Part shown: one piece after another, positions 22,500 to 55,989 of the stretch
Layout of the letters: each line of letters begins with the position of its first letter
Position numbering within the stretch: position 1 is the stretch's first letter
Source: Phormidium sp. FACHB-1136
GTDB lineage: Bacteria; Cyanobacteriota; Cyanobacteriia; Phormidesmidales; Phormidesmidaceae
Length of the DNA: 64,000 nucleotides
Reading direction: 5' to 3'
NCBI RefSeq assembly: GCF_014697375.1
Contig: NZ_JACJRS010000001.1
Span: forward strand, 1-64,000
Notes under the pieces: model-generated
The model's database searches: none
What the model was told of the DNA's origin: nothing
Seen by the model: the letters and a program-made list of their open reading frames with translations, nothing else
Program-made: the position numbers and the translations under genes

Positions 22500-24509
22500 T
22501 TAGAAGGAAATCTGACCCTGGAGGTTAAACAGGAAGATATCGGGGTTGGTGCTGAAGTTGTTGGCGTTCATGATCCAATAGAAGGAGGGCATGACCGCCA
22601 GGTTGCGGTTGATGGGGTAGCGGTAGGACACCTCCACCTCCTGCTGGGTGCCGCCGTTGCCGCCACCCGACACCAGGAATTGACGCCCCCCAGTCACGTC
22701 GTAGGGGATCAGGTAGGATACCGTTCCCAAGGCTCCTGGCTTGAACAGGTCGGGGAAGGCAACCCCCAGTTGGAAGGACTGGCCGTTGACATCGCCAATC
22801 CTGGCCCGCGTGGCGGCGTCCGTAAGTTTAACGCTGCCGTAGCTGTAGCGGCCAAACAGTCCCAGCCAAGTCCAGGGTGTCCAGTCGAAGTTGACCAGGA
22901 AGGTATCAGCGGGGGCATTGGTGACTGAACCGTTAGCCCCGTTATCCGCGAAGCCGTAGATGGGTTCGCCTGCGGTGCCGCCCACCATGGCAACTCCATT
23001 AAAGGTTGTGGGCATTAGGTTAGAGCGAGTATACAAGAACCGCAGGTTGAGGTTGTTAACGGGCCGCAGTCCAATTTGCCCCGTCAGGGTGGTGGTGCCG
23101 CCAAACAGACCCACAGAGGGATCGCTGGCGGGACGCAGACCGGGTAGGAATTCGTTATTTTCCGCCAAGTAGCCGACCCGCACATCCATCCAGTCAGCAA
23201 CATTCCACACCGCCACTGCTCCGGCCCCCCGGTCGATGGTGTTGACCTGGGTGCCGCCACTGGAGTTAAAGCTGTTAGCTCCGGTGAGGAAGAAGGTATA
23301 GCGGTTGTTGTCGAAGTAGCTATACCAGTTGATCCGGGGGCCAACCTCCAGGGTGAGGCTATCGCCCACGGGGAACATGTAGCTCAGTTCGCGCAGGATG
23401 ACATCAAAGTTGCCGACTGGGTTTTGAAAGGTGAACGGTGCACCAAAGGTATTGAACAAGCCCGCCGAGGCATAGAAATTACCTGGGGCCGTTCCCGCCC
23501 CCGCCGCCAGTTGGATCTTGAGCCGATCTGACCCGGTGAAGGAGGTGTCCATGTTAATCCAGGTCAACCCTCCAGCCGTAGTGGCGGCATCATTGGTGAT
23601 CGTGCGAACGACCGGGGCCAGGGTGACCGGGTCGCGGGCAGGAACAAAGACGCTTACCCCCTCTGCCAAAATGTTGCCGTTGGAGAAGCCGTCGCCAATG
23701 CTCATGAAGGCGGAACCGCGCAGTTTGGTTTGGGTGGAAAACTGCTGTGCCCGGAGGGAGGCGGTCTCGGCTTCTAGGGCATCCACTCGGCCTCGCAGAG
23801 CGGCCAGTTCGGTGGAAAATTCCTCCTGCAAGCGGCGAATGGCCTCAAGGTCCTCAACGGAGACATCGCCTAGGGTGCTGACTAGCACATCTAAACAGGC
23901 ATTGAGGCCCGCTGCAAACTCGTAGCGGGTGAGGCTGCGTTGTCCTCGGAAGGTGCGATCTGGGTAACCCACGAGACATTGGTAGTTGTCCACCAGGTTA
24001 CTGAGGGCTTGATAGGCCCAGTCACTAGGCGCAACATCTGAGAAATCCGTCACCCGAAGCCCCTGGGCCAGGTCAGCGGCCCTGGGTTCCACCCGGCCAT
24101 CGTTGCCCAGGGCGGTTTCTAGGTCAGTCACCAGGAACATGGGCGTGGCTTCTGCGTCAGAGGCAATAGTTTCCTCCGTTGCGTCCTCCGTGGCTACAGC
24201 CGCCGTAGCATCGACCGTTGCCTCCGAGGTAGCCTCGACCGCAGGCGTCAACGTTTCGGCCAGCAGGATGGTTTCCGTGGCCACCGCTGTCCCCAACCCT
24301 ACGTCTAGGGAAGGTTCCGCCACCGCAACCACCTCGCTAACCCCAAGGGTGGGTAGGGTTTGGGACGAGGGTTCTCGTTCCGCTACCTCCTCAGCGGCGG
24401 TGGCAGGCAAAGCCGCCATCACCAGCAAAACGGTCGCCAGCCAGCCAGATCCACGGCTCGCCCAAGCCAAGAATCGGCTTGAAAGACCCAACGTTTTAAG
24501 GTTCAACAT
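22500..24509 (-). CDS. SLH-domain outer-membrane porin (OprB / iron-uptake porin family)
   Basis: 669 residues. A signal peptide (WLATVLLVMAALPATAAEE) is followed by an Ala/Thr/Glu-rich spacer, one SLH domain (VTDFSDVAPSDWAYQALSNL ... LTRYEFAAGLNACLD), a short coiled coil (LEAIRRLQEEFSTELAALRG) and a beta-barrel ending in FNLQGQISF with a terminal Phe. This is the standard cyanobacterial porin layout: SLH binds peptidoglycan-linked polymer and the barrel allows solute or iron passage. The ATG at 24509 has the ribosome-binding site GUGUGAGGAG, fully complementary to the Yfr1 small RNA motif. It is followed by a strong terminator and is monocistronic. Confidence 0.94.
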   Translation of the reverse strand: MLNLKTLGLSSRFLAWASRGSGWLATVLLVMAALPATAAEEVAEREPSSQTLPTLGVSEVVAVAEPSLDVGLGTAVATETILLAETLTPAVEATSEATVDATAAVATEDATEETIASDAEATPMFLVTDLETALGNDGRVEPRAADLAQGLRVTDFSDVAPSDWAYQALSNLVDNYQCLVGYPDRTFRGQRSLTRYEFAAGLNACLDVLVSTLGDVSVEDLEAIRRLQEEFSTELAALRGRVDALEAETASLRAQQFSTQTKLRGSAFMSIGDGFSNGNILAEGVSVFVPARDPVTLAPVVRTITNDAATTAGGLTWINMDTSFTGSDRLKIQLAAGAGTAPGNFYASAGLFNTFGAPFTFQNPVGNFDVILRELSYMFPVGDSLTLEVGPRINWYSYFDNNRYTFFLTGANSFNSSGGTQVNTIDRGAGAVAVWNVADWMDVRVGYLAENNEFLPGLRPASDPSVGLFGGTTTLTGQIGLRPVNNLNLRFLYTRSNLMPTTFNGVAMVGGTAGEPIYGFADNGANGSVTNAPADTFLVNFDWTPWTWLGLFGRYSYGSVKLTDAATRARIGDVNGQSFQLGVAFPDLFKPGALGTVSYLIPYDVTGGRQFLVSGGGNGGTQQEVEVSYRYPINRNLAVMPSFYWIMNANNFSTNPDIFLFNLQGQISF

Positions 24510-24513
24510 CGTT

Positions 24514-24524
24514 ACTCCTCACAC
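24514..24524 (-). promoter_or_regulatory. Predicted Yfr1 small-RNA target overlapping the porin Shine-Dalgarno
   Basis: The porin mRNA reads GUGUGAGGAGU here, the perfect 11-nt complement of the Yfr1 core motif ACUCCUCACAC. It includes the AGGAG ribosome-binding site, 6 nt before the ATG. In Prochlorococcus MED4, Yfr1 is known to block translation of som porins by pairing in their 5' regions. Confidence 0.7.
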
Positions 24525-24802
24525 CAATAGATGGTTAAACACACCACGGGTGAAGCGCCTTTGACGCGCTTCGTCATGCCCAGCGATTCCCTAGCTCCCA
24601 GTGGCGGATAGACGGCCCCTGACCTCCGATAGCGGATCTGGTCGGGATGTCATTCCACCCATGGGGAAACGAGGGGGCTTGCCAGGACAACTCACGGAAA
24701 ACCAGGGGTCAGTTGAGGGAATGTCGATGGCTAAGGTTGTGATCGCCACTCAACTGCCCTGACTTCCAAGCTTTAAAGGTTTAAGGCAACCTCAGACTGG
24801 GC

Positions 24803-49331: not shown

Positions 49332-49796
49332 TTAGCTCATAGCGGTGCTGCTACGGTCGTAGGCGGCAAAATCGTGGGGGCGCTTGCCTTGAATGTGGCT
49401 TTCGTACTGGATGGCTTCATCCATCGGCAGACCGACTTCAGCGGCGAGACGCACCATCATGCCCTGTTCGCGCTTGCGGCTACGCTGGTGACGACGAATA
49501 AACAGGTTCCGGGCCAGTTCAGGAATACCGCTGGCACCGACATCAGCCATGGCCACGGGTGCTACCACGGCGGGTGCTACCACCACAGTTTCCGGTGCTG
49601 CCACGGGAGTCGTTGTACCCGTGTGGTAAGGCACACCCCGCCAGGTGAGGTCAGACGCAGGTTGGGCAGGGGGCTCGGCCACGGCACGAAAGGCCACCGC
49701 TGCCCCACGATAGGTTCCGGTATCAAAGGTCTCCCCCATCTTGGGCATGGGGTTGGGAGTATAGTCGTAGCTGACGCCGCGATAGGTCAATTTCAT
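49332..49796 (-). CDS. DUF4278 domain protein
   Basis: 154 residues. It starts with the DUF4278 signature MKLTYRGVSYDYTPNPMPKM, followed by TYRGAAVAFR and a second copy of the strand, LTWRGVPYHTG. The middle is Pro/Ala/Val-rich and the C-terminus is basic and helical (NLFIRRHQRSRKREQGMMVR ... MDEAIQYESHIQG). DUF4278 proteins are small cyanobacterial proteins of unknown function, often stress-induced. It is monocistronic, with its own terminator. Confidence 0.8.
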   Translation of the reverse strand: MKLTYRGVSYDYTPNPMPKMGETFDTGTYRGAAVAFRAVAEPPAQPASDLTWRGVPYHTGTTTPVAAPETVVVAPAVVAPVAMADVGASGIPELARNLFIRRHQRSRKREQGMMVRLAAEVGLPMDEAIQYESHIQGKRPHDFAAYDRSSTAMS

Positions 49797-50007
49797 GGTG
49801 TCGCCTCCTAGAAGCGAATGGCGTTTAGAGGCGCGTTCCTTCGGGAAGATCCCTACTTCCGTCTCTTCACTGGCTTGACGTGTAGATAACCAGGCAGAAG
49901 AGATGAACGATTTCTGTCTATGTCTGTATCATAGGCTACGGTTTTAACTGAATCTGTTTTTTTGACAAATCTACATAACCTGCGTTCAGGTTAAGCCAAA
50001 GACGACA

Positions 50008-54299: not shown

Positions 54300-54648
54300 C
54301 GTACCGGGCCAAGGTAACGGTTGTGTAATGCAACAAATTCACCCTGCATTGCAACGAATCCTTAGAAAACCTTGCGATCTTGACGCCTAGTTGCAACGAA
54401 GACCCTACAATAATTTCGGCTTTCCGGCCCTGCTCGCTACAACGCCCCCTTGGCTAAGGTCAATCTGTGGATTTGGCCAGCAGTTTTTGCTCGCCATAGC
54501 CCTTGAGTTGCAGCGTTAGGGAGTCTATGAGTCGTTCTGGTCTTTGGCTCAAAACGGCGACCGTTGCCGTCTAGGGATGCCAGGATGCCAATTTTATGCC
54601 CTACTCAGGCGACAACTTTCACCACATCACAATTTTAGGACGGGTGAC
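54300..54648. other. Promoter region of the SLH-DUF3747 gene
   Basis: 349 bases with three phased TGCAACRAA repeats and a TACAAT -10-like hexamer; no other gene recognised. Confidence 0.5.
54329..54400. promoter_or_regulatory. Three direct repeats TGCAAC(A/G)AA phased by 21 bp
   Basis: Repeats at 54329-54337, 54350-54358 and 54392-54400, start-to-start 21 and 42 bp, that is two and four helical turns. The last lies between TTGACG (54380-54385) and TACAAT (54406-54411). They look like cooperative activator or repressor sites for the SLH-DUF3747 gene. Confidence 0.5.
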
Positions 54649-55989
54649 ATGAACCGATTGACAACACTTCGTGCCGCTGCCCTCACGGCAGCAACCTTAG
54701 GCATTTTGGGTGGCATGGGGCCAGGGATGGCCACCTCCCAACCCACCATGCAGCCGATGGGGCCATCGATGGGGAATCTCCTAGCCCAGACCTTCGGCAA
54801 TACTCCCGTTAACGAGGCCAACTTTTTAGTAGTGGCGGCTCCGGGTAGTGTGTCCCAGCCCTACCGCTTGATCATCGTCGAGCAAATCTCCAACAACCGG
54901 GCCTGCTGGAGCATTCCCAACGCCAATGCACGGCCTACGGAAATTAACGCCCTCTGGAACACCTTTGACTTTACGGGGGTGTGCCGTTTGCAGCGCGACA
55001 GCAATGGCTATGCGGTGCGGCTGGCGGGGCAGGATGTCAACGGAGCCCGCTTTGAGGTCAACAACCGCAATGGGGATCTGCTGCTGCAATTTGCCCCTAG
55101 CACCACCTCCCGCGACCGGGTGACCATTGGCCGCACAGGGGGCGTTAGCTCCACTGGGTTCACCCAAATTCACCTGAATCCGGGTTGGTCGCTCACCAAG
55201 CGCACCTTTGAGGGGCAGATTGTCAGTTCTCACCTGGTCTATTTCACCAACGACCTCACCCTGGCCCAACTGATGGAGGGTGAAACGGGCGGTGGCACGG
55301 TAACGCCTCCGGTGACGCCCCCGCCAACCGTTACGCTACCCTTCACCGACATTCGCGGCAACCGCTATGCCAATGAAATTGCGCGGGCAGCGGAACTAGG
55401 CACCATGTCGGGCTTCCCCGATGGTCGCTTCCAGCCCACCAGCCCCCTCACCCGTGAGCAAGCGGTTTCGGTGATGATGGAAACGGCGGCCCGCATCTTG
55501 CCGACCAGCGTGATTGCTGAACTGCCCACCGCTGTCTTCGGTGCGCCCTTCCCAGACGTAGCGGCCAACCGCTGGAGTGCGGTGAAAATTCAGCAGGCTA
55601 AACAGTTGGGCATTGTGACCGGAGATGCCGGAACCGGACGCTTCCGCCCCACCGACAACGTATCACGGGCCGAGTTGATGGCCATGAGCCACAAATTGGC
55701 GCTGCTGCGGGTGGATGTTGGTGCGGCAGATGAGACGGGCACCCCTGTCCCTGGGTCGGGCCAGGTGCAGCGCGGCATCGTTCCCAACGTTCCCAACCCG
55801 CCCGTCTTCTCTGACATCAGCGGTCACTGGGCCGAGCGGGTGATTCGCGATATGGCCGGGTTCTGCGCCCTTGCCACCCCTCTCAATGAAACGGGTACTG
55901 CCTTTGCCCCCAATGCCAACGCCCTGCGGGATTACACCGCTGCGGTGTCGGTGCGGGCCATCGATTGCCCCGCTGGTCGCCCTCAGTAG
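54649..55989 (+). CDS. DUF3747 and SLH-domain envelope protein
   Basis: 446 residues from the ATG of MNRLTTLRAAALTAATLGIL, a normal signal peptide; the upstream extension to 54544 is unlikely. The N-terminal DUF3747 domain is beta-rich (ANFLVVAAPGSVSQPYRLII, NNRACWSIPNANARPTEINA, TGFTQIHLNPGWSLTKRTFE). A Thr/Pro linker leads to three SLH units: FTDIRGNRYANEIARAAELG ... TREQAVSVMMETAA; FPDVAANRWSAVKIQQAKQL ... SRAELMAMSHKLA; and FSDISGHWAERVIRDMAGFC. It is probably a cell-surface protein bound to the peptidoglycan-associated polymer. Confidence 0.88.
   Translation: MNRLTTLRAAALTAATLGILGGMGPGMATSQPTMQPMGPSMGNLLAQTFGNTPVNEANFLVVAAPGSVSQPYRLIIVEQISNNRACWSIPNANARPTEINALWNTFDFTGVCRLQRDSNGYAVRLAGQDVNGARFEVNNRNGDLLLQFAPSTTSRDRVTIGRTGGVSSTGFTQIHLNPGWSLTKRTFEGQIVSSHLVYFTNDLTLAQLMEGETGGGTVTPPVTPPPTVTLPFTDIRGNRYANEIARAAELGTMSGFPDGRFQPTSPLTREQAVSVMMETAARILPTSVIAELPTAVFGAPFPDVAANRWSAVKIQQAKQLGIVTGDAGTGRFRPTDNVSRAELMAMSHKLALLRVDVGAADETGTPVPGSGQVQRGIVPNVPNPPVFSDISGHWAERVIRDMAGFCALATPLNETGTAFAPNANALRDYTAAVSVRAIDCPAGRPQ

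Follow-up and report, generated by a model that had tools for sequence, protein, structure and literature searches.

The SLH-OprB porin gene on the minus strand at 22500..24509 of the window (the whole 64,000-nt stretch of DNA that was analysed) raises the question of whether its ribosome-binding site also serves to dock the sRNA Yfr1. A sequence-only reading had proposed that this site is complementary to the Yfr1 motif over its full length, directly before the porin ATG and across the Shine-Dalgarno sequence, and both the position and the match were borne out. The minus-strand leader reads CTATTGGTGTGAGGAGTAACGATG and contains the 11-mer GUGUGAGGAGU at 24514-24524, and the ATG start codon (24507..24509, minus strand) of the 669-aa open reading frame lies 4 nt past it. 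The site, GTGTGAGGAGT (24514..24524, minus strand), is the exact complement, at 11/11 positions, of ACTCCTCACAC in the yfr1 gene of this genome, and it overlaps the AGGAG of the Shine-Dalgarno sequence at 24515-24519 (minus strand). The predicted fold of the porin leader pairs the site in part, so that the mRNA may not be freely accessible there. Approximately 45 nt before the porin start codon, the leader contains a perfect 7-bp hairpin (GAAGCGC-GTCAAAG-GCGCTTC, 24552-24572, minus strand) that is not followed by a run of T.

The assignment of the gene as an SLH-OprB porin was likewise upheld. A profile search gave matches to Pfam OprB (3.9e-24) and SLH (3.2e-7), both above cut-off, and the NCBIfam model NF033921 por_somb was matched at 4.9e-85 with 286 bits compared with a cut-off of 100. 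In the protein an SLH domain precedes the OprB barrel, and the match to the Som subfamily model places it in the SomB-type 'iron uptake porin' family; its nearest named relatives are of the Nodosilinea/Leptolyngbya type. No further copy of the 11-mer was found in the whole 64,000-nt window with one mismatch allowed. The earlier claim that the other two SLH genes lack the motif therefore stood in that there was no second match, but it erred in the number of genes, just one other SLH gene being found, a DUF3747-SLH gene at 54544-55989. In another part of the window, a glutamine riboswitch (RF01739, 54.9 bits, 49830-49911, minus strand) is followed, after a gap of 33 nt, by an open reading frame of 154 aa at 49332-49796 (minus strand). 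The C-terminal 62 residues of this frame resemble the glutamine synthetase inactivation factor IF7A model with 61 bits, below the cut-off of 70, and the riboswitch and the frame together resemble the known cyanobacterial gifB (IF17) arrangement.

A covariance-model scan of the same genome found yfr1 (RF01116, 56.4 bits compared with a gathering score of 38) at C189:46400-46466 on the plus strand, directly upstream of trxA. The usual location of the gene is between guaB and trxA (PMC6778093). In the 67-nt RNA as defined by Rfam, the motif ACUCCUCACAC lies between two hairpins and was predicted to be unpaired with a probability of 1.0 at 11/11 positions, in agreement with the unpaired state that had been ascribed to it. 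In a predicted fold with 13 nt of additional 3' sequence the motif is partly paired, so that its state would depend on the true 3' end. The genome scan also gave one copy only of Yfr2/Cyano-1 (RF01701, 41.7 bits compared with a cut-off of 41) at C2:13989-14058 on the minus strand (L148), Cyano-1 being the same RNA as Yfr2 (PMC8400943). This Yfr2-type RNA bears GTGTGAGGAGCG, a near-complete copy of the porin ribosome-binding site that fits the expectation for a sponge of Yfr1, and GUGUGAGGAG is common to it and the porin site.

Because shuffled versions of the window gave a mean of 0.76 matches to the 11-mer with one mismatch, the window alone leaves room for a chance match. Chance is excluded by the genome context, because in 5.98 Mb the 11-mer occurs only twice, once at the window porin and once opposite yfr1, on its other strand. 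A search for the 10-mer GTGTGAGGAG followed by an ATG 2-14 nt further on gave five genomic sites, namely at three SLH-OprB porins, at the Yfr2-type RNA, and at one gene that resembles an HsdS subunit by sequence. The other two porins form a tandem pair on contig C185 with GGUGUGAGGAG at the equivalent position, so that in this genome 3/3 SLH-OprB porins have GGTGTGAGGAG at the ribosome-binding site. The motif matches did not include a fourth gene, which resembles OprB only weakly (26 bits). The predicted duplexes with the Yfr1 core were ranked for 580 genes from an 800-kb sample, approximately 13% of the genome. The window porin, which had been expected near the top, ranked first with a predicted -24.9 kcal/mol, compared with a mean of -12.0 and an s.d. 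of 3.6 for the sample; third and fourth place went to the tandem porins. Several other top scores in this ranking stem from internal GTG codons, which are doubtful as starts.

The complementarity beyond AGGAG proved to be conserved in orthologous and paralogous porins, as the sequence-only reading had anticipated, and more so than AGGAG itself. Across 15 same-genus orthologues (the window's own sequence counted), GGUGUGAGG / GGTGTGAGG is invariant, compared with mostly 30-80% agreement in the flanks, and the positions past AGGA, i.e. the 3' part of the Shine-Dalgarno sequence, vary. For a far comparison, the ≤20 nt before any in-frame start were searched at 80 named cyanobacterial porin loci and 312 neighbouring open reading frames. 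GTGTGAG was present in 35/80 porin leaders compared with 6/312 neighbours, and GTGTGAGGA in 21/80 compared with 0/312. The corresponding Fisher values of 1e-21 and 3e-16 ignore kinship and overstate independence because the porin leaders are related sequences. With no prior motif given, GTGTGAG was the most frequent of all 7-mers in the 80 porin leaders, and among picocyanobacteria that have yfr1, 32 of 43 porin loci contained exact GTGTGAGGA. Because the Yfr1-specific bases outlast the Shine-Dalgarno sequence in the orthologues as well as in the far porins, selection acts on them, beyond the Shine-Dalgarno sequence alone. Judged from this conservation, the porin ribosome-binding site appears to be a real, evolutionarily conserved Yfr1 docking site.

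In 117 genomes of the phylum, GTGTGAGGAG with an ATG 2-14 nt downstream gave 112 matches, compared with approximately 26 for a reversed control pattern. The figure of 112 is the count after yfr1 itself was taken out; many matches of the form GTGTGAGGAGTGAACGGAAACATG represented the opposite strand of yfr1 and were removed. At least 24 of the 112 perfect sites precede one of the 154 OprB genes listed, which are a subset of the OprB matches. Other sites precede murC, glmM and hpnH, as well as genes for alanine racemase, M23 peptidases, SpoIID-like proteins and Era, the latter names being taken from sequence reading only. These gene classes agree with what has been published on the Nostoc regulon, which is one of the cell envelope. 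Perfect Yfr1-complementary ribosome-binding sites were seen for glmM (L034, L125) and hpnH (L055, L094) in more than one cyanobacterial genus; family models confirmed L034 and L094, and L125 and L055 were assigned by resemblance. Neither gene was found as a Yfr1 target in the consulted portions of the main text of PMC6778093 and PMC6974561. A small recurring outer-membrane-like protein is likewise preceded by a Yfr1 site. At L033, L050, L054, L107, L111, and L121, in several cyanobacterial genomes, a perfect site stands before the gene of a protein that is approximately 164 aa long, has a signal peptide and looks like an outer-membrane protein, and the one member that was tested gave no Pfam match.

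It is very unlikely that the site is a strong Shine-Dalgarno sequence only, with the extra Yfr1 match due to chance or to a translation-enhancing context. AGGAG is a normal Shine-Dalgarno core that occurs in 42/312 neighbouring genes, and GTGAGGAG...ATG alone is found 20 times in the genome, in many cases away from genes. However, the GTGTG half, which lies outside the Shine-Dalgarno sequence, is better conserved than the Shine-Dalgarno half: many porin leaders retain GGTGTGAG while AGGAG has decayed, for example to GGTGTGAGTGTTATG or GGTGTGAAGGAATG, and picocyanobacteria retain GTGTGAGGACC. AAGGAG, the commoner extension of AGGAG, was present in 0/80 porin leaders compared with 14/312 neighbours. 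The plain Shine-Dalgarno explanation was rejected because GTGTG outlasts AGGAG. All that speaks for a DNA- or protein-binding element, such as part of a promoter or the site of an RNA-binding protein that precedes the start codon by coincidence, is the conservation of a short sequence. Yet GGTGTGAGG stands a few nucleotides from the start codon in unrelated genes (porins, murC, glmM, hpnH, and alanine racemase), points one way only, and is identical to the Yfr1 complement, and such an element is scarcely credible here.

A further alternative is that the partner of the site is, more than Yfr1 itself, a Yfr10-like sRNA that shares the motif. In Prochlorococcus MED4, Yfr10 has the motif and some targets in common with Yfr1, and SS120 has Yfr10 in place of Yfr1 (PMC6778093). 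With a strict Rfam filter, yfr1 was not found in a small number of picocyanobacterial genera, although their genomes are near-complete. The expectation that the porin site is always lost where yfr1 is absent failed, as most porins in these genera retain GTGTGAGG or TGTGAGGA and Yfr10-like hairpins are present. In several of the genera, intergenic elements carry CACTCCTCACAC in a short stem that is followed by a terminator, and these elements match Yfr10 as it has been described (PMC6778093). A conserved GGGCGCTGCTCGTTGAGGGCGCCC-type terminator was seen in the Yfr10-like elements at L369, L377, L381, L388, L390, L391, and L394, and some genomes have two elements. The one exception is a picocyanobacterium (G175) in which the two porin leaders that were looked at show an ordinary AAGGAG and lack the Yfr1 site, and in its guaB-trxA interval (L368, 1417-1720) CACTCCTCACAC persists with no recognised Yfr1 structure; a joint decay of the Yfr1 structure and the porin sites is possible in this one genome. 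In the genome of the window, the full 11-nt complement resides in yfr1 only, which argues against a Yfr10-like RNA as the principal partner and makes this alternative extremely unlikely.

The preferred reading is that the leader of the window porin mRNA is an antisense target of the trans-acting sRNA Yfr1, with pairing over the Shine-Dalgarno sequence lowering porin synthesis and Yfr2 relieving the effect; we assign it a probability of roughly 0.9. The unpaired ACUCCUCACAC between the two Yfr1 hairpins would pair with GUGUGAGGAGU over the Shine-Dalgarno sequence, and Yfr1 bound there would keep the 30S subunit off, so that initiation would be blocked and porin synthesis reduced. The Yfr2-type RNA of the same genome would compete by soaking up Yfr1 and thereby relieve the repression. 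This reading builds on what was shown here: that the genome has the target site, yfr1 and a competitor RNA, that pairing is predicted, and that the site is conserved in evolution. By extension from the work on MED4 and Nostoc 7120, the pairing would take place in the cell, Yfr1 very probably blocks translation of the window porin, and Yfr2 would counteract the repression.

A broader proposal, for and against which the chances are evenly balanced, is that SLH-OprB porins throughout the phylum have inherited a Yfr1 site as part of their ribosome-binding site, and that this site is kept more strictly than the Shine-Dalgarno sequence, has been taken over by Yfr10-like RNAs where yfr1 was lost, and recurs at envelope-synthesis targets (glmM, hpnH). 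The results give comparative support to Yfr1 control of outer-membrane porins as a general cyanobacterial trait that is maintained through selection on the pairing bases and is not peculiar to Prochlorococcus or Nostoc. With the simple signature GGTGTGAGGA directly before ATG, any cyanobacterial genome could be searched for its Yfr1 regulon. The genera without a recognisable yfr1 are natural test cases.

That Yfr1 inhibits som porins in MED4, as the sequence-only reading had stated, is published: Yfr1 represses the two som porins PMM1119 and PMM1121 in an E. coli reporter system, and Yfr2 relieves the repression (PMC6778093, PMC6974561). The window case has in common with that system the sRNA, the SLH-OprB/Som family and a site at the start of the mRNA, but it concerns another organism with a 6 Mb genome, has an unbroken 11-nt match and is known here from sequence. 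In Nostoc sp. PCC 7120, ten Yfr1 targets, the porins alr0834 and alr4550 among them, were repressed in an E. coli reporter system and confirmed by Yfr1 mutants; the targets in this organism comprise cell-wall genes (murC, mraY, and alanine racemase) as well as porins, and the homology of alr0834 to the MED4 targets was pointed out (PMC6974561). The site for the conserved Yfr1 motif just before the start codon is alike in the two cases, and the porin and cell-wall gene classes recur in the phylum-wide matches, whereas the lineage differs and the window target is assigned by sequence and conservation only. MicF and MicC are trans-acting sRNAs that pair over the ribosome-binding region of porin mRNAs. 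Compared with these enterobacterial regulators of OmpF and OmpC, the window case works alike, but the RNAs are unrelated and it is not a member of that group; the analogy between Yfr1 and the enterobacterial porin sRNAs was drawn in PMC6974561. Judged from its match to the SomB-type model, the window porin is of the SLH-OprB/Som family, like the known targets, and does not represent a different target class. Yfr1-porin repression is known from MED4 and Nostoc 7120, and the window porin is a well-supported further example, not a new type of system. The suggestion that the Yfr1-porin link is ancient was right, yet its wide occurrence was already implied because repression had been demonstrated in Prochlorococcus MED4 and, with alr0834 and alr4550, in Nostoc 7120 (PMC6974561). 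What the sequence comparisons add is the breadth of the Yfr1-porin link and the finding that conservation falls on the Yfr1-specific bases.
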